Source: Desulfuromonas sp. SDB (GTDB lineage: Bacteria; SDB-A). From it: a DNA stretch of 23,269 bases. The translations under genes were made by a program, and so were the position numbers. Below are positions 2,176 to 21,847 of this stretch, piece after piece (the stretch's first letter is position 1; each line of letters starts with the position of its first letter). A model generated the notes under the pieces. That model did not search any database and was not told the origin of the DNA. It worked only from the letters and a program-made list of their open reading frames with translations. The stretch covers positions 1-23,269 of the forward strand of contig LKUE01000268.1 in assembly GCA_001412365.1 (NCBI GenBank), given 5' to 3'.

Positions 2176-3201
2176 TCAAATATTAAACATAAATTCAATA
2201 ACATCGCCTTCACTGATGGGGTAGTTCTTCCCTTCCATTCTAAATAAATTCTGGTGCTTAGCTTCGGCAATAGAACCAGCTTGATCTAACTGTTTAAAGC
2301 CAATAACTTTGGCTTTAATAAAACCGCGTTGAATATCAGAATGAATTTTTCCTGCTGCCTGCAGTGCAGTAGATCCTTTAGCCAGGGGCCAAGCTCTGGC
2401 TTCTTTTTCTCCGCCAGTTAAAAAGGTAATTAAACATAACTCATCGTATAATGCCAAAATAAGTTTATCAATCGCCCGTTGTTTCAGACCGAACTGTTCA
2501 CAGAAATTTTCCTGTTCTTCCGGAGGAAGTTCAGAAATTTCAGACTGAAGTTCCGCATTCAGGGGAAATGCTTTAATTCCCCATTGATCGCATAGCTTTT
2601 GGTCAATTAAATTGTGGAAGTGATCATCTTCATTAACTGCGGCAACTGCAGGAAGTTGAGAAACTAATCCTATGCGCAGGGCAATTTTAATTGATTCATC
2701 ATCTAATTGATTTCTTAAGGGTTTACTTGATTCCAGTATGGGCATGATTTTTTCGCCAATTATATTAACTTCATTTCTTTCCTGCTGGGAATGTTTTATT
2801 CTGCGGTCATTTAATTTTTCCAGCCTTTTTTCAGTTGTATGTAAATCAGACATTACCAGGTAAGTTTCCAGCAGCTGCAGTTCTTCAGTGGGATCGGGAG
2901 GATCAGTAGCTAGTTGACTGGTAAAAGATCTCAAACAGTATAAAATAGTATCTTTGCCCTTAAGGGCGGGAACAATCTGTTTTTCAATGAATAATTCATC
3001 ATTTTGATTAGCCCGGGGTGGGGGGGAGTCATTTAAAATGATTTGAGCCGGGGTAATCTTTTTTGATGAGTATATTTCAGCTAGTCTGTTTAATCTTTTA
3101 TCGGGCACTTTGGCTACGGCTTTAGCCCCGGATTGTCCGGTCAATGCTTTAAATAATGTAGATTTGCCGCCAAACCTACTACCCACTATCTGAATTTCCA
3201 A
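2176..3201 (-). CDS. Divergent YchF-like P-loop NTPase with TGS-type C-terminus
   Basis: The 341-residue product matches YchF/OLA1 along its length (usual length about 363). There is a P-loop G7-SRFG-GKS-T15, a coiled-coil helical insert containing TTEKRLEKL (122-130), and a C-terminal TGS/DUF933-like end. In that end ARAWPLAKGS, QAAGKIHSD, RGFIKAKVI and EGDVIEFMFN are close to YchF consensus. YchF proteins are ribosome-associated ATPases. Here the switch II/G3 region, normally DIAGLV, is replaced by NDSPPPRAN (57-65), lacking the DxxG glycine. The nucleotide-specificity motif, normally NxxE, reads N190-E-D-D. ATP hydrolysis may therefore be altered or lost. The start is TTG with GGGGAG six bases upstream; no ATG fits better. 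It is the last gene of the envelope operon, 3 nt after the preceding stop. A 7-base C run (3020-3026) encodes the odd SPPPR stretch. A genome may carry this next to a canonical ychF elsewhere; I cannot check that. Confidence 0.85.
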   Translation of the reverse strand: MEIQIVGSRFGGKSTLFKALTGQSGAKAVAKVPDKRLNRLAEIYSSKKITPAQIILNDSPPPRANQNDELFIEKQIVPALKGKDTILYCLRSFTSQLATDPPDPTEELQLLETYLVMSDLHTTEKRLEKLNDRRIKHSQQERNEVNIIGEKIMPILESSKPLRNQLDDESIKIALRIGLVSQLPAVAAVNEDDHFHNLIDQKLCDQWGIKAFPLNAELQSEISELPPEEQENFCEQFGLKQRAIDKLILALYDELCLITFLTGGEKEARAWPLAKGSTALQAAGKIHSDIQRGFIKAKVIGFKQLDQAGSIAEAKHQNLFRMEGKNYPISEGDVIEFMFNI

Positions 3202-3204
3202 ATA

Positions 3205-4089
3205 CTACTCCCCGGTTATCTCCAATAAATCCGGGTGGGGGGGATATTCTTCGGTAAACAATGTTTTTTCAGTGAATTTATAGGAGATAATGTCTCCGTG
3301 TGAATTTGTCTGCAGTTCCAGCAATCCTACAGAAGAAAGATCAGTATGAATTCTGCAAACAACTGTATGATTTTCAGAACTTTCCCAAACTCCTGCAAAA
3401 CCGTCAAAACCGCTGAAAATTATATCAATGCCTTCCACAGAATTTGCCAGCAAAGTATCATGTCTGAAACTAGCTTGGTTTAAACCAATTATTATATCTG
3501 CCTGATTCTGTCTGAGTTGATCAACCGCAAATTGGGCGGCTTGGTTTTCACTTATAACTTCACATGAATCAAGCGCCCAGGTAGGAACAAACCAATCAGC
3601 ATGGCTGGATAAAATGCTGAATACTCCGATTTTCAGATTGTCTATCTCCAAAATCCGGTAAGGGATGAATACCGGAGTGCTGTCAGGATAAACTAGAGAT
3701 GAGGATATAAATTCTTGATTGGTCTTTTCCATAAATTGTTTAAAAGCGCTTACCCCTCCAAATAAATCCTCGATACCTAAGCCCATAGCATCATAGGGGA
3801 GATAGTTAATTATTTTCACAGCCAGGGAAACCTGACGGAAGTCCCCCTTAGGTCCAATCCCTAAAAAATTGCCTACATCAAAAAGAAGATCAGGATTTTC
3901 ACGCTTAACCAAAGTGTACAGAGAAGCGACTCCTCCCAGGGGAGGAGGAAAATCATGATTCATCCAGGTGGCATAACTTCGCTGAAAACTTCCTTGAACA
4001 TCGGAAGTAAATGCAATTTTCAGAGTATTTGCAGGAAGAGTAGTAATAATTACAACAATAAGTATTGGAATTAATATACCGGTTTTCAT
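3205..4089 (-). CDS. Secreted 5'-nucleotidase/UshA-like metallophosphoesterase fold, probably catalytically dead
   Basis: A signal peptide (MKTGILIPILIVVIITTLPA) precedes a domain following the N-terminal domain of UshA/YfkN-type 5'-nucleotidases: IAFTSDVQGSF (25-35, usually ILHTNDxHGHF), LLFDVGNFLG (68-77, usually DAGDxxxG), AMGLGIEDL (101-109, usually AxxxGNHEFD), GLNQASF (202-208, usually LSHxG) and GIDIIFSGFDG (220-230, usually GVDxIIxGHTH). The fold is recognisable, but most metal ligands are replaced: DxH to DVQ, GD to GN, GNHE to GIED, and GHTH to GFDG. At 294 residues it lacks the C-terminal nucleotidase domain. I chose the ATG at 4089 because GAGGA sits five bases before it and the signal peptide begins there; the ATG at 4101 has no good Shine-Dalgarno. 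It lies 1 nt after the HKD nuclease gene, so the two are probably co-translated. Likely a periplasmic or surface binding protein rather than an enzyme. Confidence 0.8.
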   Translation of the reverse strand: MKTGILIPILIVVIITTLPANTLKIAFTSDVQGSFQRSYATWMNHDFPPPLGGVASLYTLVKRENPDLLFDVGNFLGIGPKGDFRQVSLAVKIINYLPYDAMGLGIEDLFGGVSAFKQFMEKTNQEFISSSLVYPDSTPVFIPYRILEIDNLKIGVFSILSSHADWFVPTWALDSCEVISENQAAQFAVDQLRQNQADIIIGLNQASFRHDTLLANSVEGIDIIFSGFDGFAGVWESSENHTVVCRIHTDLSSVGLLELQTNSHGDIISYKFTEKTLFTEEYPPHPDLLEITGE

Positions 4090-4090
4090 A

Positions 4091-4675
4091 TTATTCCTCA
4101 TCTAAAATAAGTTCATAGGTGGAATGCTGCTTTATCGAATTGTAGTATTCCCTTACTTCCTGGTATAATTGAGGTGATTTTACCATAACTGAAATTTCAT
4201 TATTTCTAGCCAAGGCATAGTAAGACCAGTTAGTTGATCCGATTACTACAATATCATCATCGATTAACAACATTTTATTATGACTGGTGACATCAGGGGG
4301 ATCCCACAGCACATTAACTCCTCCTTCTCTGAGCAGATTAGCTAATTGAAGATTTTGGAAGGTGCTGCCCATGTTCCAGGAAGAGGCATCCAGAATTATT
4401 TCCACATAAACCCCTCGATCCACCGCATTAAATAAATCTTGATAGAGTTGTTCGTTAACTCCTTCGGGGTGCTCAGGATAAGTGCGTGCCTGGTACATAA
4501 TGATAAGTATCTCTGATTCCGCTTTTTCAATAAGCTGGTGGATAATAGGGTAATAATTGCGGTTAGCCAGCATCATAACCTGTTCTGCCGGATGGGCGAG
4601 AGGGTTAATTTCCTGGGAGATTAAACAATTACTCCATAAAATTATTATTACTAGTATTGCTGATAAATATTTCAT
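4091..4675 (-). CDS. Secreted phospholipase D-family (single HKD) nuclease-like protein
   Basis: The 194-residue product starts with a signal peptide (residues 1 to about 20, MKYLSAILVIIILWS). It carries one perfect HKD motif: H132-N-K134-x4-D139-x6-G-S-T-N. One HKD per chain and this length are typical of the Nuc/BfiI-like branch, where two chains pair to build one active site that cleaves phosphodiester bonds, often in DNA without sequence preference. The strand and helix pattern before the motif (SEILIIMYQAR, YVEIILDASS) also fits Nuc. The catalytic residues look intact, unlike its neighbour. An upstream in-frame ATG at 4705 would add ten residues, but the ATG at 4675 is chosen: GAGGA lies five bases before it and the signal peptide starts there. 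The ribosome site overlaps the stop of the preceding barrel gene (7 nt gap). Other members of this superfamily are lipases, so lipid substrates cannot be excluded. Confidence 0.87.
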   Translation of the reverse strand: MKYLSAILVIIILWSNCLISQEINPLAHPAEQVMMLANRNYYPIIHQLIEKAESEILIIMYQARTYPEHPEGVNEQLYQDLFNAVDRGVYVEIILDASSWNMGSTFQNLQLANLLREGGVNVLWDPPDVTSHNKMLLIDDDIVVIGSTNWSYYALARNNEISVMVKSPQLYQEVREYYNSIKQHSTYELILDEE

Positions 4676-4682
4676 AATTTCC

Positions 4683-5765
4683 TCACAGATTGTAACCAAG
4701 TCCAACCATAAAATTCATTGAATTGTCATGAATAGTAATATCATTCATCTGCTTGGGGTACTGCTTCTGGCGGTAGTCCATAGAAGTTTGAATGATCAGA
4801 TTATGCTGATGAAATTCAAATCCTCCCGAAAAATAAGCTGCATCTGCTTCTGAATTGAAACAATTTTCCTCATAACCTCCGCCCAATAAAATCTTCACAT
4901 GCCGGGAGAATTGATTTTCAATGCCAAAACAGTAAATTTTAGTATCTTGGAGATTTTCATCTAACTGATTATAAAATTTATAATAAAAATCAAAGTAAAC
5001 TCTTGCCGGAATAATTGCCCTGGCAAAATAATTTAATCCAATTCCAACTTCCAAGGGTTGCTGAATATCCTGATTTTTTGATTGCAGGATTAAAGCTGCG
5101 TCAACCTGAGGGAGTACATGGACAACAGAACCAAACCGGTAAAGCAATCCGGTTTGATCAAAGCTGGATTCAACAACTGTATCTTCAGCAATGGGCTGGT
5201 AGAAAATATGTTGATATTTCTTCTGCTGGTTTAAATTAATGTAATTAACTGCTACTCCAAAAGAAACAACCGGGAACTGGTAATTCATAGATATCCCTGC
5301 AGCAATGCCCTGGCCAGAACCGGTTTGTTTAATGATTCCGGTGGTCTGATAGAAATCATCTCTCTGAATTATTTCATGATGGTAGAAATAATCCCTGACC
5401 ATACCAGCGTAAAACATACCTCCCAATTTATCATACTGAATTGCTCCATAAGCTCCGTAAGGAGCAACATGAACCGATCTACTCTGGGAGATGGTCAAAT
5501 TGCCTATGCGGTTATTGTAATTATCATAGACGGATTGAGTTTCCGATTCGGTTTGATAATCAGCGCCCACCATCATGTAAACAGAATAGCCCATCTCCCC
5601 TGGATTGGCTGGATTTAACAGAGGATCAGTAGTGAGGCCAGCTCCTCCTCTGCTGGCAGAATTTACTGAAGAAAAATTTAAAACCTCACCGTATCCGGTA
5701 TAGTCAATATATCCGCTAAATAACCATGCCGGTAAGATGAGTAAAATAAATAAAAACCTGGACAT
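4683..5765 (-). CDS. Outer-membrane beta-barrel protein, PorV/FadL-like
   Basis: The 360-residue product begins with a signal peptide (MSRFLFILLILPAWLFSG). Near the mature N-terminus is a segment resembling the PorV/FadL/UPF0164 signature: SASRGGAGLTTDP then LLNPANPGEM, where the family has a GGA...NPA pattern. The rest is alternating hydrophobic and polar strands rich in Tyr, Gly and Phe (AAGISMNYQF, VSFGVAVNYINL, VKILLGGGYEE) and ends MNFMVGLGYNL, a plausible last barrel strand. It probably sits in the outer membrane; its substrate is unknown. AAGGAG lies seven bases before the ATG. A 43-nt gap, the largest in the operon, separates it from the HhH-barrel gene upstream. No terminator or convincing promoter is visible in that gap. 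The assignment to barrel is firm; the exact family is less so. Confidence 0.75.
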   Translation of the reverse strand: MSRFLFILLILPAWLFSGYIDYTGYGEVLNFSSVNSASRGGAGLTTDPLLNPANPGEMGYSVYMMVGADYQTESETQSVYDNYNNRIGNLTISQSRSVHVAPYGAYGAIQYDKLGGMFYAGMVRDYFYHHEIIQRDDFYQTTGIIKQTGSGQGIAAGISMNYQFPVVSFGVAVNYINLNQQKKYQHIFYQPIAEDTVVESSFDQTGLLYRFGSVVHVLPQVDAALILQSKNQDIQQPLEVGIGLNYFARAIIPARVYFDFYYKFYNQLDENLQDTKIYCFGIENQFSRHVKILLGGGYEENCFNSEADAAYFSGGFEFHQHNLIIQTSMDYRQKQYPKQMNDITIHDNSMNFMVGLGYNL

Positions 5766-5808
5766 TAAAATTCTCCTTTTTTATATATAAAAACAATATT
5801 AAACATGG

Positions 5809-8196
5809 TTAAAAACGGTAATCTATCAACAAGCCCATCTGCAGGCTGTTATTGATGTCTTTAAAGCCCGGTGAAACTACTGGCTGTTGATTTATGTCGT
5901 ATAATTCTTCAAAACCATAATAGGGATGATAATAATTTACATATTTAGCCTTAAACCTGACAAAGAGATTGTCGTTTAATCTTTGTTTAAGCACCAGGTA
6001 TGATTTCATCCCGTAACCGTATAAGAAATCCAGTCCCATATCTTCAAATTCCCATTGACTCATTTCCTCACCGTTCCAGGCATCAATTCCTCCTAACATG
6101 GAAAAACCTGGATTGAATTGATGTTCATACCTTCCGGAAAGGTAGTAGCCGGCTATAATTTCTGAACTGGAACCAACTACTTTACTAAGCTGGACCTGAG
6201 AACGGGTTACTGCTGCAGAGATCATGTCTTCTCCGATGAAATATCTGAAGTAAAGTTCAGTTTCATTAGTTATAGAGGTACTGTAGTTGGAGGTTTTGGG
6301 AAGATTTTTCTTCTGCCATTTCTGTCTTAAGCGGACCATAAACGGATAAACAATATGGTACTCCAGTTTAATTTCCGCCCGGTAATTTTTTAATCCGCTG
6401 GCAATATTTTCCCATATATCAATATAGGCTTTGGAAATGGTTAATTGCCGGGTAATTTGATAACGGGTGCCGATATATATTCCCTGTTCAGCTTTAGGTT
6501 GAGGATCATCCTGGAGATAAGCGTATAATGGATTGATCAAGCGGTAAGGTTTTTCCAATTCAGTATCTTCAAATCTTTGCTGTTCGGAAAAAGCCCGGTT
6601 GAAAGGATTGTCGAAGCCAACATCATAATGTCTCCAAATCACATCAATATGAAAGAAGTTATACTGTATACGGGAATTTAAAATATAAGCATAGTTATCC
6701 TCGTTTTGCCTGGCTGCTTCCAAAGAAAGGGACACATTGCCGAAAATTACACTTCGGGCAGCTAAAGCGTAAACTTCTCGAATATCCCCTCTGAACTGAT
6801 TGGTGAAATTTCCGTCAGTTAACTGGTCAACATCTCCGGGCAAGTCAATATAAGCTGGTTCGGGCTTAAAATATTTATCATATTCACTGCGGTAATAATA
6901 ACCTTCAATGGCAGTACCCGGCATTAGCTTGTCCAAACGGATGGAAATTCCTCCTCCATAGGTTAATTCATCCACCTCATCGGTACTTACTTTCCAAGGA
7001 AGGTTGTACAATACTACCACTGTATCATCTTCACCGGATATTACCTGGCGGGTTGTTTTGCTGAGAAAAACCAGGGGATAGAAGTAATCCATCAATCTTA
7101 GCTGAATTAATCCCCCCCTTAAGCCGTACTGGCTGTTTTCAGTGAGATCTCCGTAAACTCCCCTTACCTTTTCAGTTTGGCGGGGTCGGAATTCGTTACC
7201 GTTATCCATAAATAATCCTTCTCCAATGGTTATACGGTAATCTCCTAATATTAGAGCATCAATAATTTTATAGCGTCGAACCGAACCATATCCCCTGAAC
7301 TGATCATGGATAATATTCCCCTGGTGAAATCTCAATCCCACTCTAAAATTATTGGAGTATCCTGCTTTTAAAGTATACTGCTGGTAATTGTAATTATTGC
7401 CGGGCAGGATTATCTGATTTCTCACTGAAGTTAAATTGTCAATATACCTGGTGATAGAATCTGCTGACCATCCTGAATTCAACAATCTTTGATAAATGGT
7501 AGATTCATTATCTTCTAATTCATGAATTCGATTGTCAATTTCATCTTGGTAGTACTGAAGGCTGTATTCTTTTGCTTCCGATGGCTGTTCAAGATCAAAT
7601 TTTATTCGGACGATACCATAAAAATTCTGTTCAGGTTCTTCATCGGGCTCTCTGAGATAATTTCTCATATTCCGGTAACCGTATGCAGACAGATTTTCAA
7701 CATCAGTCAGCTGTCCAATGTAACGGTAATCTTCCCACTGGTACTTGTGGTGAAGCACTGCTGCTGCATCAATTAAGGAGACATTCCACAAACCATCCAA
7801 ATCATATACAGTGGCTTGGTTTAAATCATAAGGATAAAGCAGTAAATTTTCCCACAATTCATTAGCTCCGGTTCCCGGGTTGTCCTCAGAAGCCAGACGG
7901 TCCCTTAAATCGTCAATTCTCACCGTCCTCCAATCCTGACTTTGATCAAATCTTACCGATATAAGAGGCAAAATCTTTTGATAGTTTTGTGCATTCATCC
8001 CCTGGATATTCCACAGTTCGGTATAAGATCGTAAACCATTATGACTCCAGATGTACTGATATATATTTAAAGCTAAACTGCTGTCCACGGGCAGAGTGTA
8101 GATCTGCTCCAGAGAAGCATGGTTTATATCCAGTTTTGCCGAAGGAAATATCAATAGGGGAATTAACAGAATAATGAAAAAGTTTATAATTTTCAT
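5809..8196 (-). CDS. Helix-hairpin-helix domain protein fused to a large outer-membrane beta-barrel
   Basis: The 795-residue product has a signal peptide (MKIINFFIILLIPLLIFPSA) and two ComEA-like (HhH)2 units at about residues 22-80 (LDINHASLEQIYTLP) and 124-182 (YDLNQATVYDLDGL). The remainder is a long series of amphipathic strands with many Tyr/Arg residues ending in MGLLIDYRF, a typical last strand ending in Phe. HhH plus barrel proteins of this kind occur in FCB-group genomes, often annotated only as helix-hairpin-helix proteins. ComEA HhH domains bind DNA in competence. Here the hairpin glycines (normally LPGIG) are missing: LPVDSSLA and LWNVSLIDA. The ATG at 8196 is preferred because the signal peptide begins there and it overlaps the preceding stop (ATGA), implying translational coupling; an upstream frame reaching 8232 is unlikely. 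A 7-base G/C run (7112-7118) lies mid-gene. The role may be envelope nucleic-acid transport, but this is inference. Confidence 0.82.
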   Translation of the reverse strand: MKIINFFIILLIPLLIFPSAKLDINHASLEQIYTLPVDSSLALNIYQYIWSHNGLRSYTELWNIQGMNAQNYQKILPLISVRFDQSQDWRTVRIDDLRDRLASEDNPGTGANELWENLLLYPYDLNQATVYDLDGLWNVSLIDAAAVLHHKYQWEDYRYIGQLTDVENLSAYGYRNMRNYLREPDEEPEQNFYGIVRIKFDLEQPSEAKEYSLQYYQDEIDNRIHELEDNESTIYQRLLNSGWSADSITRYIDNLTSVRNQIILPGNNYNYQQYTLKAGYSNNFRVGLRFHQGNIIHDQFRGYGSVRRYKIIDALILGDYRITIGEGLFMDNGNEFRPRQTEKVRGVYGDLTENSQYGLRGGLIQLRLMDYFYPLVFLSKTTRQVISGEDDTVVVLYNLPWKVSTDEVDELTYGGGISIRLDKLMPGTAIEGYYYRSEYDKYFKPEPAYIDLPGDVDQLTDGNFTNQFRGDIREVYALAARSVIFGNVSLSLEAARQNEDNYAYILNSRIQYNFFHIDVIWRHYDVGFDNPFNRAFSEQQRFEDTELEKPYRLINPLYAYLQDDPQPKAEQGIYIGTRYQITRQLTISKAYIDIWENIASGLKNYRAEIKLEYHIVYPFMVRLRQKWQKKNLPKTSNYSTSITNETELYFRYFIGEDMISAAVTRSQVQLSKVVGSSSEIIAGYYLSGRYEHQFNPGFSMLGGIDAWNGEEMSQWEFEDMGLDFLYGYGMKSYLVLKQRLNDNLFVRFKAKYVNYYHPYYGFEELYDINQQPVVSPGFKDINNSLQMGLLIDYRF

Positions 8197-9056
8197 CTGA
8201 GTATATACCCCACTGATATCTGATGAGTCCAAGGCAGAACTGCATGCTGCACTACTGCGTAGTTTAATATAAACGGGTTAAAGTTGATGCTTAGCCCCGC
8301 AGAGAATCTAACTGGTTCGGTTTGGACACCGGTGCGGAATGTAAGATATCTGGAAACAGTAAATTCATGACCGGTAGAAAATCTCAGGGGAAAGCCGACC
8401 TCATGTCGAATTTCAAATGATGAATTAATTGAAGAAGTGGGAGAAAAAGCAAATCCTGCTCTAAGTACCCGGGGAAGTTCTTCAGGATTTTCTTTGCCCA
8501 AGCTGGGACTATTGATATTGTGCAGGGATATTCCCACTTTCCAGTAATCATAGAGAGTTCCTGCAACCCCAAGATCAAAACCTAAGGCATAAGTGGATCC
8601 GAATCTAGCCTGCTTTAAATTATAGACATGTACAGTGGAGCCGATAGAAAAATTGTCCTGAAGGGCAACCCCATGGGACAGGGAAACAGTTGCTTCCCGG
8701 TGCAGTTCAGCGTCTGCTTCAATTAAAATGCTATCTCCATTCCGATAATCTCCTTGAACTGAAAACCATCTTAAATTGAGTGCAGATACACCTATTTTTG
8801 AAGGAATGGCAAAACCTGCCCCTGCACTTTGAAACAGACCATAAGGTTTTCGATAGTAGGATACAACTTCAATATTATCAATATTAGTTAATCCTCCCGG
8901 ATTATAGATTGCTTCCAGGGGATTGCTAACAATAGCAGTTACCGATTCGGACATTCCCTCCGCTCGGGGGGAGCTTTCGGTTTCCTCAAAAGCAGCATAT
9001 CCTATCTGTCCGAATAATATTAGCAAGGCTAAAGAGATAATTATATTTTTTCGCAT
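8193..9056 (-). CDS. PorV/PorQ-like (UPF0164-type) outer-membrane protein
   Basis: The 287-residue product has a signal peptide (MRKNIIISLALLILFGQIGYA). It then has the classic motif of the PorV/PorQ/UPF0164 barrel family: PRAEGMSESVTAIVSNPLEA followed by IYNPGGL, matching 'R-x-x-GMG-A-TA...NPA-GL'. Barrel strands follow (VSALNLRWFSV, VGISLHNIN, FSAGLSINF, ending HQISVGYIL). In type IX secretion PorV shuttles cargo carrying a C-terminal domain to the sortase at the surface. The gene directly upstream encodes a secreted protein with such a C-terminal domain, so a cargo/partner relationship is plausible, although no other type IX component is in this window. GGAG lies five bases before the ATG and overlaps the end of the upstream gene (2 nt gap). 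The stop overlaps the next start by 4 bp. Confidence 0.83.
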   Translation of the reverse strand: MRKNIIISLALLILFGQIGYAAFEETESSPRAEGMSESVTAIVSNPLEAIYNPGGLTNIDNIEVVSYYRKPYGLFQSAGAGFAIPSKIGVSALNLRWFSVQGDYRNGDSILIEADAELHREATVSLSHGVALQDNFSIGSTVHVYNLKQARFGSTYALGFDLGVAGTLYDYWKVGISLHNINSPSLGKENPEELPRVLRAGFAFSPTSSINSSFEIRHEVGFPLRFSTGHEFTVSRYLTFRTGVQTEPVRFSAGLSINFNPFILNYAVVQHAVLPWTHQISVGYILR

Positions 9057-9058
9057 AT

Positions 9059-12037
9059 CTACTCCAATGTGGTTCCCACAACTAATGGTTTATTTATAAT
9101 CTCTTCATCGCCGTTGTTGTGTTTATATTTCAAATGAACTATGTAAACTCCAATCCGGGCATTAAATCCATAATTGGTCAAACCATCCCAGGTAATGTAC
9201 TGGGGACCGCTGGCGGTATTTTCAAGTAAGCTGGCAACTTCCCTGCCTTCCATGTCAAAAATTTTCAAAGTTAATGTCCCCTCCAGAGGTGAATTAACAA
9301 ATATATGAATAATCTCTCCGGCGGTTATGGAAACAGGATTAGGATAAATAGTTAATTGGGGATCTTGGGTCGGATTAGCCAGATGAATTTCCATAAGATC
9401 TGAATTAAATCTTGGCAACAGTTGATAACCGGAAGCGGGGGGGGTGTCATAACTGTATTGACCGGCTATTCCGATAACATCCAGGATATTGCCCACGGTT
9501 ATGTGGTCAGTGTTAAGATTAGCGTCGTCAGTTAAACGGACTGCAATAATAGTTCGCCCGTTTCTTATCTCGAAGTCTTTTCCGGATCCGCTTTGAACAG
9601 GAAGGGAGGTGACTATTGCATTTTTAACCATAACTAATCTTCCTTCAATTAATTCGTAAATACCCTGATTTTCTTGAAGTAGAAGAGTATCGGGCAAAGG
9701 TCTCTGCAATCCTACAATGGTTGCTGAATCCGGATGTGCATATACAATTTCGGTTATTCCGTTATATTCAGTGACTACTCCCCTTACAATTACCTCTGCC
9801 CCTAAAACAAAACTTTGATTACCGTCATCTTCCGAGGAGAATATATTTACTCCGGAGGTGGAATCTTCCATCCAGAAAGAAGTTTTGGTGGTTCCTCCAT
9901 TGAATATGGATGAAGGTCCGGTAACCACACCTGCCACCACCACTGAATGACCAAGTAAAATCGGATTATATCCCCCTGAATCCGGTTGCTGAGCTTCGCT
10001 CATTGAATTCACTGACCATATCCGGGGGGAATTATATATTTCAGTTAAATTGGGAAAACCCTGTACTCCTGTTTTAGTTAATAATTCAAAACTTCCTGTA
10101 GAATCAGGAGCAGTTACATTGGTAATGGCTATAAAACAACTGCTGTCCGGTTCTAAGGAAAGATTGCTTATATATATTATATATTCCTGATCCTGTCCAT
10201 TTCCTGCAACTGAATCTACAGTAGCCCCTGAGGGCACTTGGATATCGTTGATTGAACCGCCCCAGTGCCAAGAAGTATCGGTGATCTCAAAGCTAATCTG
10301 GTCAATAGTGTCAATTTCTGCGGTAATGTATAAATTTATATCACCGGTGCTTCCATGGATAATGGAGGAAAGATAGGATTCCACAAAACCGCTGCCTGAT
10401 CCTCCTTTTCGAATATCATCGAGACTCCTGGGCATTATTTGATAACCAGAAGTATATGGTGAGCTGGGGCAGTACTGGGAAATAATACCCGTAACTGAAA
10501 ATCCATCAGGAGGAACTGGTTTTCCCGCAATTTCCTGGACTAAAACCCTTAACTCAAAATCTCCGGTGCCGTCAGAAATAGGCATATTCTGCTCTACCTG
10601 GGGGAAAACGGGTACGGTTTGGAGAAGATTGTCAATTCGGACCAATCTGCCTTCATAATTTTCAATGCCTCCGGTGCCTTCCAACTCCAGGATTGAACAG
10701 GTTACTACTTCCGGAATCAGGGGTTGGGCTGGAAAGGGTCCGGATATCAGATCGGAAGGAGAAAGTTCAGTGAGTCCGTTCCAATGATCTACTGTTCCTT
10801 GAAATACTCCGCTGTCTCCTATGGATAATCCTCCCCCCGGATTGTAAACACAAACTCCTCCGGTTCCATCTTCCAGAAAATACTGCCCGCCAAGCTCTCC
10901 TGCTGCGGTCATAATTCCGGTAACCACTACATTCTCTCCAAGCAGCAGGGGCACTCCCTGGGAAGTATTTGCCCTGACCAGAGAAATCGGAATTGAGCCA
11001 TCAGCTCGAGTAATTTGAATAATGGGAAAGGTTGATATTGGAGAAAGAGTATCCCCGGAACTTGCGGTGTACACATACAAAGTCTCAATCCCTGGATTTT
11101 GAGCGGTAACTGAAGTTAACTGGCAAGTTCCCGATTTAACTGATGAAACTTCAGCTCCGTTGATTAAAATTGTATCTCCGGATACTGAATATACGGCATT
11201 TAAAAATCCTGACCCCGAAAAAGTTAAATTGCCTGAAAAATCAAAACTTTTCGGAAGAATTATTTCAATTTCATTTATCTCCCCGAATGCAGTTGAAAAG
11301 TTGAAGTTCAGATTCACCGGATCATTCTGAATAATTTGGTTTGGGGAAACATTCACTTCGCCTGCTCCGGAAAAGGTATAGTAAATATCCTGATTTCCCC
11401 GGGGTTGCAGTTTAAAATTATCAAATGAATAATCCACAATTCCCACCAGAGCAGCTAAAGTGTCGCCTAAAAAGGGTGGTGTATAGGGACCGGCATCATC
11501 AACCCTGGCTGGTCCGGAGCCATCATCTATTTCCCATTCTCCATATCCTAAGCTTGTATCGGTGACCACTGGCTGAAGAATTCCCACCAAAACTCCTTCG
11601 AACATCTCCGCCGTATCCGGATTGGAGGTGGCGATTTCGCTGGTAGTAATTAAGGTGGGGGGAGGGACCTGGCAGCCTGAGGCTAGAACCGTAACTGAAC
11701 TGGGAAAAGAAATTTCAGTTTTTCCATAATATTCTTCCACCGGTCCGGTAACTCTCACTGAATCACCCAGATCTACATTGTAAAAAGTGGTATAAACTAA
11801 AACTCCGCTGTATGCTCCTACCGAATCCTGAATGTAAAATCCGGGATCAATTACTCCCGATGGGGCAGTGACTATTCCAACTACAGTTACCTCCTGACCT
11901 GTATACTGACCTGAGGTATCGGATTGAATATCTTGAATTCTCAGCACTGTTTGCCCCCCCAGGGGAGAGCTTAAAGCAGACATGATGAGAACAACAAAAA
12001 TGTTTACCATAAGTGCATGGCTTAAAATGTTTCTCAC
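9059..12037 (-). CDS. Large secreted multi-OB-fold protein with FlgD/T9SS-like C-terminal domain
   Basis: The 992-residue product has an N-terminal signal segment (to about residue 29). Three copies follow of a two-part module resembling the YhcR/NucH-type OB folds that accompany extracellular nucleases: about 45-215 (VTVVGIVTAPSG, FYIQD, LGDSVRVTGPVEEY), 350-545 (NVVVTGIMTAAGE, YFLEDGTGG) and 690-890 (SVVVAGVVTGPSS, FWMEDSTSG, LGAEVIVRGVVTEY). The second half of each module ends with a similar phrase (LQPRGNQDI, IMPRSLDDI, LLPRFNSDL). Ig-like spacers fill 220-345 and 550-680. The C-terminus (about 905-992) is a sorting-like domain with YPNP, LKIFDMEGREV, YITWDG and GVYIVHLKY. No endonuclease catalytic domain is visible, so it may bind rather than cut. 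The start is GTG with GGGAGG six bases upstream. It is first in the operon and likely sets the cargo. Function is inferred from the folds only. Confidence 0.83.
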   Translation of the reverse strand: MRNILSHALMVNIFVVLIMSALSSPLGGQTVLRIQDIQSDTSGQYTGQEVTVVGIVTAPSGVIDPGFYIQDSVGAYSGVLVYTTFYNVDLGDSVRVTGPVEEYYGKTEISFPSSVTVLASGCQVPPPTLITTSEIATSNPDTAEMFEGVLVGILQPVVTDTSLGYGEWEIDDGSGPARVDDAGPYTPPFLGDTLAALVGIVDYSFDNFKLQPRGNQDIYYTFSGAGEVNVSPNQIIQNDPVNLNFNFSTAFGEINEIEIILPKSFDFSGNLTFSGSGFLNAVYSVSGDTILINGAEVSSVKSGTCQLTSVTAQNPGIETLYVYTASSGDTLSPISTFPIIQITRADGSIPISLVRANTSQGVPLLLGENVVVTGIMTAAGELGGQYFLEDGTGGVCVYNPGGGLSIGDSGVFQGTVDHWNGLTELSPSDLISGPFPAQPLIPEVVTCSILELEGTGGIENYEGRLVRIDNLLQTVPVFPQVEQNMPISDGTGDFELRVLVQEIAGKPVPPDGFSVTGIISQYCPSSPYTSGYQIMPRSLDDIRKGGSGSGFVESYLSSIIHGSTGDINLYITAEIDTIDQISFEITDTSWHWGGSINDIQVPSGATVDSVAGNGQDQEYIIYISNLSLEPDSSCFIAITNVTAPDSTGSFELLTKTGVQGFPNLTEIYNSPRIWSVNSMSEAQQPDSGGYNPILLGHSVVVAGVVTGPSSIFNGGTTKTSFWMEDSTSGVNIFSSEDDGNQSFVLGAEVIVRGVVTEYNGITEIVYAHPDSATIVGLQRPLPDTLLLQENQGIYELIEGRLVMVKNAIVTSLPVQSGSGKDFEIRNGRTIIAVRLTDDANLNTDHITVGNILDVIGIAGQYSYDTPPASGYQLLPRFNSDLMEIHLANPTQDPQLTIYPNPVSITAGEIIHIFVNSPLEGTLTLKIFDMEGREVASLLENTASGPQYITWDGLTNYGFNARIGVYIVHLKYKHNNGDEEIINKPLVVGTTLE
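9437..9444. repeat. Homopolymer of 8 G (C on the coding strand) inside the OB-fold gene
   Basis: Eight consecutive G on the plus strand encode part of the DTPPAS stretch at about residues 863-868, just upstream of the C-terminal sorting-like domain. Slippage by one base would remove that domain by frameshift. This is the longest G/C homopolymer I saw in the window. Confidence 0.85.
11954..11960. repeat. Homopolymer of 7 C (G on the coding strand) at the signal peptide end of the OB-fold gene
   Basis: Seven consecutive C on the plus strand encode the glycines of PLGGQ near residues 25-29, about 80 bases from the start codon. This is a typical position for an on/off contingency tract, although seven bases is short for one. 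Confidence 0.8.
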
Positions 12038-12196: not shown

Positions 12197-12796
12197 TTAG
12201 TTTATCTGTTTAACTACTAAACCTTCCCGGACAAAAATTCTCGAACATTTTTCACAAGTGGTTTGCTCATTGTTATCTGAATCAATACCCAAGGGCAATT
12301 TAATCCCGCATTCACAAACCCAGCCAATTTGATAAGCAGGAACGCCTACCATCAGGGCATAATCGGGGACATCTTTGGAAATTACCGCACCTGCGCCAAT
12401 CATTGCCCACTCTCCGATAACATGACCGCAGACCACGGTACAATTTGCCCCCAGGGTTGCTCCTTTTTTAACCAGGGTGGAAATCCATTTTCCTCCTTTG
12501 GGATAAGGAGCCCGGGGATTGATATCATTGGTGAAAACCATGGAGGGACCAGCAAAAACCCCATCTTCAAGGGTGACCATGGCATAAACGGAAACATTGT
12601 TCTGAAGTTTTACTCCATTCCCTAAAACTGCCCGGTCATCTACATAACAATTTTGGGAAATAGAACAATTTTCACCTATTTTAGCTCCTGAACGGACATG
12701 GGAAAAATGCCAAATTTTGGTTCCTTTTCCGATTTGTGCACCCTCATCTACGATTGCGGACGAGTGGACAAAATAATTTTGATTTTCAGAACTCAT
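12197..12796 (-). CDS. wbpD: WbpD-like UDP-amino-sugar N-acetyltransferase (left-handed beta-helix)
   Basis: The 199-residue product is a hexapeptide-repeat acetyltransferase with many [LIV]-G-x4 rungs (AQIGKGTKIWHF, AKIGENCSI, AVLGNGVKL, ATLGANCTV, AMIGAGAVI). It is close to WbpD/WlbB, which use acetyl-CoA to acetylate UDP-2-acetamido-3-amino-2,3-dideoxy-glucuronate on the way to diacetamido-uronic acids of O-antigen. The family hallmark FTNDINPRAPYP is present. A C-terminal extension carries paired cysteines (CECGIK and CEKC), a zinc-ribbon-like tail often seen in this family. The ATG at 12796 is chosen because GAGG lies seven bases upstream; the GTG at 12802 is only about one base from it. 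It follows the dehydrogenase gene by 22 nt. The exact sugar could differ, since the aminotransferase (WbpE) and the 6-dehydrogenase (WbpA) are not in the window. Confidence 0.85.
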   Translation of the reverse strand: MSSENQNYFVHSSAIVDEGAQIGKGTKIWHFSHVRSGAKIGENCSISQNCYVDDRAVLGNGVKLQNNVSVYAMVTLEDGVFAGPSMVFTNDINPRAPYPKGGKWISTLVKKGATLGANCTVVCGHVIGEWAMIGAGAVISKDVPDYALMVGVPAYQIGWVCECGIKLPLGIDSDNNEQTTCEKCSRIFVREGLVVKQIN

Positions 12797-12818
12797 TAAC
12801 ACACCTCACTGAAGAATA

Positions 12819-13832
12819 TTAAATGTTTATTGGTTTTCCATGATCACGCAGAGACTGAGTGGCTGCCTGCAGTATTTTCACAACATTGAGACCATTGATC
12901 CCGTCTGACTTGGGATTCTTACGGTTTTGAACACAATCCAGAAAATGCAGGCATTCATTTTTTAAAGGTTCACCCGCAGGAATTTTGGGAATATAAATAT
13001 CTCCGATTCGTAAGGTCAATGAACCCTGATAATCAGCCATTCCTGGTTGATAATCCACCCCTTTATCGTATATCCTTAAATTTTCTCCGGGGGCGGCATC
13101 GTCGAAAACAGCCATTTTTTTGGAACCTACTACTGTTGTTTTTCTGATTTTATGAGGGTCTAACCAGCTTACGTGGACATGTGCGGTTTTTCCGGATTTA
13201 AATTTTAATGAAGTAAATACAACGTCTTCCACTCCCGGATTTAAGAAAGCTGCCCCCGTGGAAACTACCTCGGTGGGGGTCTCATCAAGTAAATATAAGA
13301 TTATGCTCAGATCGTGAGGGGCAAAACTCCACAGTGCATTTTCCTGATCTCTTACTTTGCCTAAATTTACCCGGGTGGTGTAAATATAATATATATCTCC
13401 AAGTTCACCTTTTTCTATGATTTGTTTTAGGTAGATAACTCCGGGATGATACATTAAAAGATGACCCACCATTATTATTAAATTTTTATCTGAAGCCAAC
13501 TTATTAAGTTTTTCCGCTTGGTATGATTTCAAGGTCAGCGGTTTTTCAACATAAAGATCTTTACCCGAAGACAGTACCTGCAGAGCAAGGTCATAATGAG
13601 AGGGGGCAGAGGTCGCTATGGCTACTGCTTGGAGTTTGGGATCATCAAGTATTTCAGAAAGCTGAGATTTAATTTCAATTTGGGGGTATTGGGAGGATAT
13701 TTTTTTCCGGGCTTTTTCATCTGAATCTACAAGGTAATCTATTTGACAACTTTTTAAATTATAAAAATTCCGTATTAAATTAGGACCCCATGAACCCGCT
13801 CCCACTACAGCAAGATGAACTTTTTTATCCAT
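12819..13832 (-). CDS. Gfo/Idh/MocA family NAD-dependent sugar-nucleotide dehydrogenase (WbpB/WlbA-like)
   Basis: The 337-residue product has an N-terminal Rossmann fold (LAVVGAGSWGPNLIRNF, a G-x-G-x2-G pattern). The EKP motif of the Gfo/Idh/MocA family follows (DLYVEKPLTL), then a catalytic-domain region with FAPHDLSIILYLL, where the His is the usual acid/base position. Next to a WbpD-type acetyltransferase, the likely role is oxidation of C3 of a UDP-N-acetyl-glucuronate-type sugar before transamination (WbpB/WlbA role). The family has many substrates, so specificity is inferred from context. GGAG lies six bases before the ATG and overlaps the epimerase stop region (9 nt gap), so it is in the same operon. 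Length is normal and no defect is visible. Confidence 0.85.
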   Translation of the reverse strand: MDKKVHLAVVGAGSWGPNLIRNFYNLKSCQIDYLVDSDEKARKKISSQYPQIEIKSQLSEILDDPKLQAVAIATSAPSHYDLALQVLSSGKDLYVEKPLTLKSYQAEKLNKLASDKNLIIMVGHLLMYHPGVIYLKQIIEKGELGDIYYIYTTRVNLGKVRDQENALWSFAPHDLSIILYLLDETPTEVVSTGAAFLNPGVEDVVFTSLKFKSGKTAHVHVSWLDPHKIRKTTVVGSKKMAVFDDAAPGENLRIYDKGVDYQPGMADYQGSLTLRIGDIYIPKIPAGEPLKNECLHFLDCVQNRKNPKSDGINGLNVVKILQAATQSLRDHGKPINI

Positions 13833-13841
13833 AACTCACTC

Positions 13842-14762
13842 CTATTTTTTTAAATTTTTGAAGTATTCAATTGTGCTGGTTAACCCCTGGTTTAAATCAA
13901 CTAGAGGAGCCCACCCCAAGATATTTTTTGCTTTGTGATAATTTACAATACTGCGGTCTAATTCTCCCGGACGGGCAGGTAAAAACAGGGGATCAGGTAT
14001 ATCAGTGAAATTTGAACGCATTTTTTCAAATAATTCTTTTACGGTGGTGGGTTCTGATGTTGATATATTGAATATTTCTCCATTGCCTTTATCCAGGCAT
14101 TTAACTACTGCGTTAATTACATCTTTGACATAAACATAATCTCTAATTAATTCACCGAATCCGAATAATATTGATTGTTTCCGGTTTATCATTTGATTGG
14201 CAAAAATCGCCACCACTCCCGCTTCACCCAGGGGATCTTGCCGGGGACCGTAAACATTGGCCAATCTTAAGATAGTGTAGTTTAGATTATGGTTATGGTG
14301 ATAAGAGGCGAGGTAATGTTCTCCCGATAATTTGCTGACTCCATACGGTGAAACTGGAGCAGGAGGAGTTAATTCATCAGCTGGTTCATCAGTGTTCCCA
14401 TACATTACTCCTGCCGAAGATATAAATACAAATTTCTTAATACTGGAGTTAACTGTGGATTGAAGAATATTCAACAAACCCTCAATATTGATGTGGGCAT
14501 CGAAGATAGGATTTTCCACTGATTTTCTTACATCTATCTGCGCGGCAAAATGAATGATGTAGTCGAATTGCTTTTTCTGGAACAGTGAGGAAAAATTATA
14601 ATCAGTAATGTCAGCTTCAATGAAATTTACCGACGAAGGCAGGTTTTCTTTTTTTCCTGAACAAAGATTATCTATTACCGTAACATCGTATCCTTTGTTG
14701 ATAAATTCTTCTGCTGCATGTGATCCAATAAAACCAGCCCCTCCGGTAATCAACATATTCAT
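13842..14762 (-). CDS. NAD-dependent sugar-nucleotide epimerase/dehydratase, GalE-like
   Basis: The 306-residue product is an extended short-chain dehydrogenase: nucleotide-binding TGGAGFIGSH at residues 6-15, then DNLCSGKKENLP, the HFAAQIDVRKSVENP region, and the catalytic S-S-A-G followed by YGVSK (Tyr-x3-Lys). LRLANVYGPRQDP and RDYVYVKDV complete the UDP-hexose 4-epimerase pattern. Such enzymes interconvert C4 epimers of UDP-glucose, UDP-GlcNAc or their uronates; the sequence alone does not decide which. GGAG lies eight bases before the ATG. It is the first gene of the three-gene sugar operon and is preceded by a good promoter candidate. Length fits the shorter bacterial/archaeal GalE-like group. 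Confidence 0.87.
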   Translation of the reverse strand: MNMLITGGAGFIGSHAAEEFINKGYDVTVIDNLCSGKKENLPSSVNFIEADITDYNFSSLFQKKQFDYIIHFAAQIDVRKSVENPIFDAHINIEGLLNILQSTVNSSIKKFVFISSAGVMYGNTDEPADELTPPAPVSPYGVSKLSGEHYLASYHHNHNLNYTILRLANVYGPRQDPLGEAGVVAIFANQMINRKQSILFGFGELIRDYVYVKDVINAVVKCLDKGNGEIFNISTSEPTTVKELFEKMRSNFTDIPDPLFLPARPGELDRSIVNYHKAKNILGWAPLVDLNQGLTSTIEYFKNLKK

Positions 14763-17410: not shown

Positions 17411-20400
17411 ATGAAGATAATCAATCGAAGATATGAAATTATTGAAGAAGCGGGGAAGGGGAGGTTTGGGATTGTGTATAAAGTTAAAGATTTATTAACT
17501 CCCAGTTTTCCAATTAAAAGTTTAAAAATATATAATTCGGATAGATCAGGAAAAGAAAATTTAAAGCTGTTCATTAACGATTTTCTGTACACCAAAAGTA
17601 TTTATCTTCCCAATGTTATTAAAGTATACGATTTTGATAAGATTTACGATATAGATAAAACATCATTTTCTGGAAATTACTTCTTCTACACCATGGAATA
17701 TATTACCGGGTACCCCCTTAGTAGATATTCATTTAAGAGTAAAAAAGAAAACAAGAATATTCTTTCCAAAGTAATATTCAATTTAAACTGGCTTCATCAA
17801 AATGGTTTTAGTCATGGTGAACTAAATTTAGACAATGTGATAATAGAGAATAATGATGTCAGATTTATAAATTTAAATCATGAAGGTAATATTCATTTAG
17901 AAAAACAAAAATTTCTAAATAGCCTGCAGCAAATTTTCAATCTAAGTAAAACTTTTATTGACAATAATTATATAAAAGAGATTTCAGAATCATACATTAA
18001 AAAAATTTATCAACAAAGATATCAATACACCATTGAATTAATCTCCTTTTTAAAAACTGATATTGAACAAAATATAAAAAATGCCAGGGAAAATTTAAAT
18101 CAGTCCTATGCTTTTAATTATTTAAATTTTAAAGGTACCTACTTTGAAATTCTAAAACAATTTTTTTGCGATATGTTTAAAACCAATGGATATCGGGTAA
18201 TAAATATATCTGAATCTAAAAACAAGTATTCCATACTTTATTTTTTAACTTACTTTATCGATAAAAATTTGCATTACCAGAATATCATCGAAAATTTGAA
18301 TACTAAATACATTGGACTTTTGGAAGACATTAATCAGGGAAAACCAGTTGAAAATTACCAGAAAGCTTTTCTAGGAGATTTTCTCTGTTCCATAGTGGAA
18401 AAATTATCATATTTCAGCAAAATGCTGATAATAATTGATAATATTCAAAATATTGACAGGGAGAGCAGGGATCTGGTGGGGTATTTGTTCGACAACTACC
18501 GTGGTAATCATGTCATTGTTTTAGTTAATGATTCCAAACAGTACACTGATAATTATTCCATAAAAGTATTTAATGACTACACTTACCCCTCTGATCAAAA
18601 ATATAAATTAGAGATTATTAAAATTATTGAAAAGAATTTAAGCATTTTTAATTTAGTAAATCTGGAATTTTATCTGGACCAGCTTAACAATATAGATTTG
18701 ATAAGTACTCTTGATTATATAATAACCAACATTGACAGTTTCAGCAGTCAACAGAAAACTGAAAGTGAATTTAGAAGACCTGAAAAATTTGTTGATCAAA
18801 TTGTTTTTCAAAATCAGCGAATAATTGAATATCTCCACAAACCAATCTACATGAAAACTCTTTCCTTCTTGTACTATCTGCACCGCCCTGCACCTGTAGA
18901 AATTTTAAAGCAGCTGGTGGGTAAAAGATATGCTGATTTTACTGAAAACCTTTTTAAAGATTCCTTAATTGTCAATATAAAAGGGAATAGAATTGATTTT
19001 CACGATTATCAGGTTATCCGCATCGTGGAAAATTTTCTTGAAAACAAAGATGAAAAATTCATCAGTAAAGTGCTTGAAAAAGTAATTTCTATATATGAGT
19101 CAAATAAAGGCATTCTCAATGACAATGATGTCGTCGGATGGCTGCAATCTCTGGCATTGTTAAAAAAATATTCAAAAATGTCAAGTGTACTTTACCATAA
19201 ATACCTCACTGCAGATATTTCTTTTTATACCCTTAAAGAAAATATCGGCAAATTTTTAAATTATTTTCAAAAAGATACCGATAATTTTAGTGCAATTAAA
19301 AATAATGAAAACAAGTTTATATTTAAACTAAGCTACGCTTTAATTGTCAAAAAAGAACATTACCACCAGAAATATAAATTACTTAAAATTCTAGAGTCTG
19401 AATACTGTAGTAATGAAAAATTTCAGCTGTTGCTAAATTTAAATCTCATTGATTATTACTTTTGGGCGGTTGATTATGAAAAAGTCGAAGAGTATTTAGA
19501 TAAGCTAACTAAATCGAAAAATAAGTTAAACCAATTTCACCGCTATTATATCGAATACCTCCATATTAAGTACCTTATAGAAAAATCAAAATTTGATGAT
19601 GCTTTAGAAAAAATAAGAAAATTATTTAAACAGCTTAAACATTTAAACAACTATAAAAAATATCCCAATTTGTATTTGAAATGTCTAAACTATCTGGGAT
19701 TGTTATATGAAAAACAAAACTTGGGAAAACGATTATTAAATTCACTAAAATTATATTTAGAAAAAGCTGAAATATTAAATTCAAACCAGCATCTGTTCAT
19801 CGCTCATACCGGTTTAGGAGTTTATCTTTATTATCACGGATTTTCTGATGATTCCAAAGAACATTTCGAGAAATCGTTAGTTTATGCCCAAAAAACAGAT
19901 ATTTACGAAGATATGATTCTTGCCTACAATAATTTGATCGCTCTAGAAGAAAGAGTAGACAAACAAAAAAATTATTTGTATAAAGCGCTTAATTACACTT
20001 CATTAATAGATGATAAGAGAAATATTTTCATTGTCTTAAGCAATCTTTTATCTCTTATTGACGATCCCAGAGAAGCGGTGAAATTAATAAATAAATACAA
20101 CAATATCTTAAAAAAAGATGAAATATTGTCCAACGGCAATATGATTAGCAAATTATCCATGCTGTTAGAAGTACTCAGGGTATTTGTTTACCAGGATGAA
20201 ATGAAAAATATCAAAAATTACCACTCTATAGTAAAAAATTTCAATATTAAAAATTATTCAGATGAAGTTGCCAGTTTATACAATTTAGTCATAATTACAT
20301 ATGAATTCGTAATTTACGGATATTCAGCAAATTACTTCAAACAAATAATTGAAATATTGAGAAATATTAATGACGACATTAAGTTCAGTTTGTATGAAGC

Positions 20401-21847
20401 AGTATTTTACTGGTATTTTTCATATTTTAAACTAAATGAGATAAAAATATTCTATCAAGATATCATCAAATTCTACACCAAGCGGAATGAATTGAATTCA
20501 GTTAAAAATATAATAATAATTAACCGGACAGAACAGGAAAACCTTGTAAAAAATCCAAAATTGCTGTTTCGCTATATCAACAGATTTTCAAATAATTATC
20601 ACATCATAAAATACTTAAAATACTTAGCTGCAATTTATTATGCTTTCTGTTTAAAAAAACTTCAAAAACAAAATTATAAAAACTACATTTCTTTAATCAT
20701 GAATAACTACGAAAAACAGAAAAACAAATTTGTAAATGAAAATTTAATTGAAATAACTTTTTGGAGAAAGATAATCAATTTATTAGGGGAGATGTTTCCT
20801 GATGATGTCAGAGAATATTACTCTCACCGAGGTAAATTGAGAATAATTCAATCTGATGAAAAAAAATTATTAGAAGTTATTGACAGGTTCAATCCCCGTG
20901 ATTATGAAAATTTCATTGAAAATATTTTAAATGAGATGATCAAGATGTTAAATTATGAGAGAGCCGCTTTTTTTGAAACTGACAAATTATATAAACCGGA
21001 ATTAGTAGTTTACCTGGATAAATTTATGTACTCCCGAAATGAAAGATTTTATTTTAATTTCCAGAATTTCAATCCTAAAAATCAAATACTTGTGGAAAAT
21101 TTACCTGAAAATTCTGATCAGATCAACTCTTACATCTTAATACCGTTTATAGATGACAAACTGCAAAACAGAATGGAAATTCAGTATAACAAAAGCAATT
21201 TATCCACTGAATACTCCTACCTGGAATATATAAAAGCATTTATATATTTAGATAAAAAGCACAGTGTCGAAAGTTCCATCAATAAAAACTTTCTGGAATT
21301 ATTCAAACATTTTATTTCCAGTTTATGGATAAATCAGCAGAATGAAATAAAATTCATGAAAGATAAATTAACCGGCTTGTATTTCAAAGATGTGTTCAAA
21401 AGTAAATTATCTGATTATATATACAATATTAAAAATCCGGACAAAAAAATTGCATTGATTATGGTAGATATTGACTATTTCAAAAAAGTAAATGATAATT
21501 TTGGGCATCAAAGAGGAGATGAGGTACTTCATCAAATTGCTCAGATTTTAGAAAAATCAATTCGAACATCTGATTTGATAGGACGGTATGGCGGAGAAGA
21601 ATTTATTATCGCCCTGTTAAATACAAATCCTGAAAATGCGATTATTGTCGCTGAAAAGCTCAGAAATAAAATTGAAAAAGCAAAATTGCTGGGAAATATT
21701 GATGAGTTAACTATATCCGCAGGAATATCTTTTTATCCAAACGATTCTGTTTGGATTGATGAATTGATAGAGAAAGCGGATCAAGCGATGTATCTATCTA
21801 AACAGAAGGGGAGAAATAAAGTCTTCTCAACGCTATCTTTAAAGTAA
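17411..21847 (+). CDS. Pseudokinase - degenerate STAND - TPR - GAF-like - GGDEF diguanylate cyclase
   Basis: This 1478-residue signalling protein starts with a Ser/Thr kinase-like fold: G15-K-G-R-F-G20 loop and a possible Lys39. The catalytic loop is H135-G-E-L-N-L-D-N142 (usually HRDLKPxN) and DFG is replaced by N154-L-N, so it is probably a pseudokinase. A STAND-like region (about 230-600) has a Walker B-like strand MLIIIDN (338-344), but no GxxxxGKS is found before it. Helical TPR-type repeats span about 640-1150 (for example LGVYLYYHGFSDDSKEHFEK). A weak GAF-like region follows (about 1158-1290). The end is a full GGDEF domain: DKLTGLY, MVDIDYFKKVND, FGHQRGDEVL, GGEEF (1394-1398) and an inhibitory I-site R1385-TSD1388 five residues before it. 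It should make cyclic di-GMP in the cytoplasm; no membrane segment is seen. The ATG at 17411 starts the kinase fold and has no Shine-Dalgarno. The DNA is visibly more AT-rich than the operon genes. The input signal is unknown. Confidence 0.88.
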   Translation: MKIINRRYEIIEEAGKGRFGIVYKVKDLLTPSFPIKSLKIYNSDRSGKENLKLFINDFLYTKSIYLPNVIKVYDFDKIYDIDKTSFSGNYFFYTMEYITGYPLSRYSFKSKKENKNILSKVIFNLNWLHQNGFSHGELNLDNVIIENNDVRFINLNHEGNIHLEKQKFLNSLQQIFNLSKTFIDNNYIKEISESYIKKIYQQRYQYTIELISFLKTDIEQNIKNARENLNQSYAFNYLNFKGTYFEILKQFFCDMFKTNGYRVINISESKNKYSILYFLTYFIDKNLHYQNIIENLNTKYIGLLEDINQGKPVENYQKAFLGDFLCSIVEKLSYFSKMLIIIDNIQNIDRESRDLVGYLFDNYRGNHVIVLVNDSKQYTDNYSIKVFNDYTYPSDQKYKLEIIKIIEKNLSIFNLVNLEFYLDQLNNIDLISTLDYIITNIDSFSSQQKTESEFRRPEKFVDQIVFQNQRIIEYLHKPIYMKTLSFLYYLHRPAPVEILKQLVGKRYADFTENLFKDSLIVNIKGNRIDFHDYQVIRIVENFLENKDEKFISKVLEKVISIYESNKGILNDNDVVGWLQSLALLKKYSKMSSVLYHKYLTADISFYTLKENIGKFLNYFQKDTDNFSAIKNNENKFIFKLSYALIVKKEHYHQKYKLLKILESEYCSNEKFQLLLNLNLIDYYFWAVDYEKVEEYLDKLTKSKNKLNQFHRYYIEYLHIKYLIEKSKFDDALEKIRKLFKQLKHLNNYKKYPNLYLKCLNYLGLLYEKQNLGKRLLNSLKLYLEKAEILNSNQHLFIAHTGLGVYLYYHGFSDDSKEHFEKSLVYAQKTDIYEDMILAYNNLIALEERVDKQKNYLYKALNYTSLIDDKRNIFIVLSNLLSLIDDPREAVKLINKYNNILKKDEILSNGNMISKLSMLLEVLRVFVYQDEMKNIKNYHSIVKNFNIKNYSDEVASLYNLVIITYEFVIYGYSANYFKQIIEILRNINDDIKFSLYEAVFYWYFSYFKLNEIKIFYQDIIKFYTKRNELNSVKNIIIINRTEQENLVKNPKLLFRYINRFSNNYHIIKYLKYLAAIYYAFCLKKLQKQNYKNYISLIMNNYEKQKNKFVNENLIEITFWRKIINLLGEMFPDDVREYYSHRGKLRIIQSDEKKLLEVIDRFNPRDYENFIENILNEMIKMLNYERAAFFETDKLYKPELVVYLDKFMYSRNERFYFNFQNFNPKNQILVENLPENSDQINSYILIPFIDDKLQNRMEIQYNKSNLSTEYSYLEYIKAFIYLDKKHSVESSINKNFLELFKHFISSLWINQQNEIKFMKDKLTGLYFKDVFKSKLSDYIYNIKNPDKKIALIMVDIDYFKKVNDNFGHQRGDEVLHQIAQILEKSIRTSDLIGRYGGEEFIIALLNTNPENAIIVAEKLRNKIEKAKLLGNIDELTISAGISFYPNDSVWIDELIEKADQAMYLSKQKGRNKVFSTLSLK

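Follow-up and report, generated by a model that had tools for sequence, protein, structure and literature searches.

A conserved outer-membrane gene cluster encoding a type IX-like OB-fold protein, with a possible role in nucleic acid or nucleotide processing at the cell surface

Closest described systems

None of the three proteins RA0C_RS04920/04915/02645 is dispensable for DNA uptake in Riemerella anatipestifer; one contains DUF5689, another is a barrel of the outer membrane and the third has HhH (PMC8459023). The cluster analyzed here, which lies in a 23,269-nucleotide stretch of DNA referred to as the window, likewise combines a DUF5689 surface protein with an outer-membrane barrel and an HhH protein, although in Riemerella the HhH protein and the barrel are encoded by separate genes and no 5'-nucleotidase is named, the likeness being one of shared domains (PMC8459023). 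The DNA-degradation loci of Ca. Izemoplasmatales resemble the cluster in the co-location of nucleic-acid-binding, lamin-tail, nuclease, phosphohydrolase and transporter genes; they are without outer-membrane barrels or type IX secretion, whereas the module described here has membrane barrels as its core and seldom includes a nuclease (PMC8289736). The HKD protein of the window can be compared with Helicobacter pylori NucT, since both are exported single-HKD proteins with an identical active-site signature, but NucT depends on a positively charged groove whereas the HKD protein of the window is acidic (PMC5714352).

Extracellular nucleases of the ExeM/NucH type form a further point of comparison. 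The nuclease activity of ExeM requires its OB-type region, and the OB protein of the window has such a region (NF033681, 3e-21) but is without a nuclease domain. A sorting-like C-terminal domain, a PorV-like partner and SprA in the window genome recall type IX cargo and its PorV shuttle, with the difference that the PorV-like protein here has 287 residues and falls mostly into an operon-linked group of its own. To our knowledge, the HhH-barrel and FadL-like barrel belong to no described type IX system. A first-pass annotation of this DNA knew of no described system with such a gene set, and the literature searched for the cluster also yielded none; the cluster is undescribed and unnamed in the literature and family libraries searched.

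Layout and conservation of the cluster

All seven minus-strand open reading frames of the first-pass annotation were seen (Table 1), and the domains it had named (OB, PorV-like, HhH, HKD, 5'-nucleotidase fold and YchF) were matched by family searches. Its intergenic gaps of 2, -4, 43, 7, 1 and 3 nt were recovered using downstream ATG starts for the HhH-barrel (8196), HKD (4675) and nucleotidase-like (4089) genes; the most-upstream starts give other raw gaps, and start choice is the sole cause. The -4 gap is an ATGA shared by the PorV-like gene and the HhH-barrel gene. Promoter and terminator scans gave no more than the shuffled level. Two flanking plus-strand genes encode proteins of strongly positive predicted charge, a TPR protein (2-2170) and a large kinase-like protein with a GGDEF domain at its end (17411-21847).

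Table 1. Features of the gene cluster, with positions in the window.
Feature	Position	Strand	Basis
Whole seven-gene cluster	2176-12037	minus	ORFs and family searches
OB-fold protein, secreted, 992 aa, OB-type unit in three repeats, C-terminal sorting-like domain	9059..12037	(-)	PF18942, PF01336, NF033681
C-terminal sorting-like domain of OB protein, residues 897-973	9119..9349	(-)	Por_Secre_tail / TIGR04183 1.8e-5 / FlgD_ig
PorV-like outer-membrane protein, 287 aa	8193..9056	(-)	NF033709 1.2e-13
HhH-barrel, ComEA-like HhH region and large beta-barrel	5809..8196	(-)	PF12836 6.7e-10; AF2 model
First HHH_3 domain of HhH-barrel, residues 32-90 (807-aa frame), hairpins without GxG	7963..8139	(-)	
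Second HhH-like repeat of HhH-barrel, degenerate, approx. residues 117-195	7648..7884	(-)	Alignment; HHH_3 matches there in relatives
FadL/BamG-fold outer-membrane barrel, 360 aa	4683..5765	(-)	AF2 model, fold and profile matches
Single-HKD protein, Nuc/NucT type, predicted exported	4091..4675	(-)	PLDc_2 3.3e-24, NucT 2.1e-15
HKD motif HNKMLLIDDDIVVIGSTN	4229..4282	(-)	Fits NucT signature HxK(x)4D(x)6GSxN
5'-nucleotidase-fold protein, truncated, ligand-less	3205..4089	(-)	NF041198 9.2e-21
YchF-like P-loop protein	2176..3201	(-)	TIGR00092 1.8e-53, under cut-off

The seven genes occur in the same order in all four genomes analyzed from the window's phylum (G000, the window genome, to G003), with 32-76% identity in the other three, and given this order in three further genomes the cluster is confirmed to be more than a chance arrangement. 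Absence of the neighbourhood from relatives had been set beforehand as a refuting outcome; the neighbourhood proved to be strongly kept in them. A contig scan with the HhH-barrel found a relative in a candidate division WOR-3 MAG (JAFGIG010000086.1). For the survey beyond the phylum, neighbourhoods were collected with an HhH-barrel profile and their genes labelled by one profile per gene, giving a sample of 43 loci from 27 families which all carry the HhH-barrel protein. Genes for the OB protein, PorV-like protein, HhH-barrel and FadL-like barrel were contiguous on one strand at 27 of the 43 loci (17 of the 27 families), and at 19 loci in 14 families a 5'-nucleotidase-fold gene followed this four-gene run within three genes. 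Locus L052 carries the first four genes too and was left out of the count owing to an over-long start. The HhH-barrel was found without the rest of the module at L045, L057 and L062, and L046 starts at a contig end, where the upstream side cannot be judged. A search of the phylum of genome G139 was positive in 4 of 4 genomes.

The widely conserved core is therefore these five genes, and the "seven-gene system" of the first-pass annotation was too broad. The HKD and YchF-like genes are lineage-specific additions: a stand-alone HKD gene within the operon was found in the window's family only, and a YchF-like gene near the module in the window's family and family f106 only. We rejected YchF as a part of the system on this ground and treated it as lineage-specific. 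None of the four phylum genomes yielded a YchF homologue besides the YchF-like gene, whose product matched the YchF C-terminal domain (5.5e-30) while reaching 182 bits against a cut-off of 279.2 for TIGR00092. In f106 (L051, L068, L072) Amidohydro_3 and other genes lie between the FadL-like barrel and the YchF-like gene, and the YchF linkage is thus present in two lineages.

Component proteins and alternative readings

The OB protein, which is 60% identical in relatives, matched OB (PF01336) and, above cut-off, DUF5689 (PF18942, 7.4e-9). Its sorting-like tail scored 24.6 bits with TIGR04183 (cut-off 23), and 19.8 and 23.7 bits with Por_Secre_tail and FlgD_ig respectively (both cut-offs 27); a profile of this domain matched the C-terminal domain of PorU at 1.3e-5. 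SprA was found in the window genome above the curated cut-off (G000:C6, 207 bits) and was present in 24 of 24 genomes with a long HhH-barrel as opposed to 51 of 169 others (Fisher p ~1e-11, not corrected for ancestry). Lamin-tail domains are frequent among the OB proteins of relatives. Few of the scanned loci have a recognisable nuclease; at L055 an Endonuclease I domain (2.4e-56) lies inside a downstream OB-containing protein beside the module. Metallo-beta-lactamase-fold proteins were also seen near the module, at L055:3110-5392 (with GYF domains) and L052:4776-5876.

Directly upstream of the OB gene and in the same direction (window 12197-14762, minus strand) lie genes for a hexapeptide acetyltransferase, a Gfo/Idh oxidoreductase closest to UDP-GlcNAc 3-dehydrogenase, and a sugar epimerase. 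The acetyltransferase and epimerase, as nucleotide-sugar genes, are retained in G001-G003. Such genes could supply type IX cargo with a sugar, as a linker or at the surface.

The PorV-like protein reached 51.4 bits against a cut-off of 90 for NF033709, and the profile of its family matched solved PorV (6h3i_F, 1e-10). A tree built from PorV-like proteins placed most operon copies in one group; the operon copies of L055, L078 and L079 fell outside this group, and two presumed paralogues, from genomes G106 and G107 which carry the HhH-barrel elsewhere, fell inside it. The 360-residue FadL-like protein had no Pfam match. Its AF2 model (pLDDT 86.5) aligned with BamG (9hiv_F) at Z 33.0 and with FadL (3pgs_A) at Z 32.0 (315 residues, 3.3 A), so that in the model the nearest fold is close to a tie, and the profile of the family (A9) matched TodX at 1.1e-13. 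By profile and predicted model, the protein is a FadL-superfamily barrel. Since FadL-fold barrels include BamG and PorV, the fold is no pointer to nucleosides.

These likenesses to PorV and BamG, together with the type IX-like tail of the OB protein, are what the main rival reading draws on, namely that the PorV-like protein, the FadL/BamG-like barrel and the HhH-barrel form an outer-membrane complex for the export, folding or anchoring of the OB protein, with the enzymes as passengers. The barrels and the PorV-like protein would suit this reading just as well as the preferred one. It would also accommodate a shorter HhH-barrel subfamily (approx. 600-700 aa) which adjoins a PorV paralogue without the remaining module and with no enzymes (L082, L087, L088, L089, L091). 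We consider this reading rather unlikely, as it leaves the endonuclease domain of L055 unexplained, and the nucleotidase bears on it from both sides (see below).

The HhH-barrel matched HHH_3 (PF12836) with 39.4 bits against a cut-off of 27, and its HhH region is homologous to ComEA (8dss_A, 1.3e-11). In every long homologue aligned the first hairpin is without GxG and has a one-residue deletion relative to ComEA, and in the window protein every hairpin is without GxG. The HhH domain was rejected as proof of DNA binding because of these degenerate hairpins. The AF2 model (pLDDT 83) has approx. 24 strands, and its best solved matches were pilus ushers (Z 15.7, 373 residues at 5.3 A); we take this as a generic large-barrel resemblance and therefore read no function from the fold. 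A DNA-uptake machine for natural transformation would be suggested by the homology to ComEA, by the Riemerella precedent and by the presence of ComEC in the window genome. ComEC is present in 178 of 193 genomes, however, and so carries little information, while G108 has the module and no ComEC match. The window genome moreover encodes another HhH protein, of ComEA size, and a transformation machine would not be expected to include a 5'-nucleotidase; with GxG lost from the hairpins as well we judge this reading improbable.

The first-pass annotation had called the HKD protein intact and nuclease-like, and its motif HNKMLLIDDDIVVIGSTN fits the NucT signature exactly. It reached 57.2 bits against the NCBIfam NucT cut-off of 211, and it also matched cardiolipin synthase and MitoPLD. 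HKD proteins act on lipids too, and with the FadL/TodX fold of the barrel, the acidic HKD domain and the phosphatase fold one could picture a system for scavenging lipids or phosphoesters by means of the barrel and an HKD phosphodiesterase. We think this very improbable, because the protein is a predicted exported single-HKD form with the exact NucT motif and because OB domains, lamin-tail domains and one endonuclease domain occur elsewhere in the family.

The 5'-nucleotidase-fold protein of the window is of the UshA/SoxB type. As the first-pass annotation had proposed, the metal ligands are absent, both from this protein and from its three relatives (approx. 300 aa), which have lost the UshA-type metal-ligand motifs and the C-terminal domain. 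The nucleotidases of other lineages have approx. 510-585 residues with Metallophos and 5_nucleotid_C domains, and most copies retain the motifs read from the alignment (NDxHG, GD, GNH[DE], H, GHxH and C-terminal NxGG), among them L043, L048, L049, L050, L054 and L064 and, with small changes, L070, L074 and L078. Two motif histidines are gone from the nucleotidase of L080. At L073 (5512-7116, minus strand) several motifs are gone and the C-terminal domain is retained, apparently a second, independent loss. The module nucleotidase is the only 5_nucleotid_C match of the genome in G104, G132, G137, G071 and G139; in the window genome no 5_nucleotid_C domain was found anywhere, and G001-G003 have one elsewhere in the genome.

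On at least two occasions, then, the nucleotidase has lost catalysis and yet been retained, so that it may have a structural or binding role too; with the ligands gone from the copies of the window's phylum and of L073, and some of them from that of L080, catalysis is not always needed. Retention of the protein even without catalysis would fit the export and assembly reading, which nevertheless gives no reason for the recurrence, in most lineages, of a 5'-nucleotidase with its catalytic motifs intact.

Proposed function of the module

The reading we prefer, with a probability of roughly 0.45, is that the cluster encodes a type IX-linked outer-membrane module for surface processing of nucleic acids or nucleotides. 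The gene order, the intact nucleotidases of relatives, the Endonuclease I of L055, the NucT-type HKD protein and the co-occurrence with SprA all argue for it, as do the resemblance of the lamin-tail and OB domains to extracellular nucleases, a 1443-residue protein with two PLD stretches that precedes the OB gene in L072, and the DNA-uptake precedent of Riemerella. Against it stand the absence of GxG, the acidity of the OB, HhH and HKD parts, the nucleotidases without ligands and the scarcity of recognisable nucleases. The OB protein would be exported by type IX secretion and retained by a dedicated PorV-like partner, as its sorting-like domain and the SprA of the genome suggest, and would act together with two outer-membrane proteins, the HhH-barrel and the FadL-type barrel, which may let products through. 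The 5'-nucleotidase, judged by the intact motifs of most other lineages, would strip phosphate for nucleoside uptake. In the window's phylum the nucleotidase has decayed and lost catalysis, and the exported HKD phosphodiesterase is an addition, probably as the cutting enzyme.

Binding, cutting and import of DNA or nucleotides had been the original proposal for the cluster. The processing part gains from the nucleotidases of relatives, Endonuclease I and the NucT motif, while DNA-binding surfaces on the OB and HhH domains, which had been set as a test, came out partly against it, with GxG absent and both parts acidic. Predicted pI values were 4.1 for the OB protein, 4.5 for the HhH region and 4.7 for the HKD domain, with 5.8 to 9.1 for proteins neighbouring the operon. 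Acidic surface proteins may bind DNA via calcium, and the acidity therefore makes DNA binding less likely rather than impossible. DNA binding, cutting and import by the module is something that we infer. More tentatively, and with some doubt, we suggest an outer-membrane machine in which the ComEA-derived HhH region could have given up DNA binding and become the periplasmic portion of a large barrel; this barrel, jointly with PorV-type and FadL-type barrels and a cargo of type IX secretion, would take in the breakdown products of nucleic acids.

The cluster retains its gene order in at least 17 families, whose members are mostly uncultured bacteria, and likely matters to its carriers. If the surface-processing reading is true, it would explain by what means many candidate phyla could use extracellular nucleic acids as food, and would give PorV-type and FadL-type proteins and a ComEA-derived domain a new role; the conserved order and motifs yield clear, testable predictions. 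ABC-transporter genes (two permeases and SBP_bac_8) were observed just upstream of the OB gene at L043, L044, L048, L049, L053 and L070, the assignment at L070 being based on the solute-binding protein alone.
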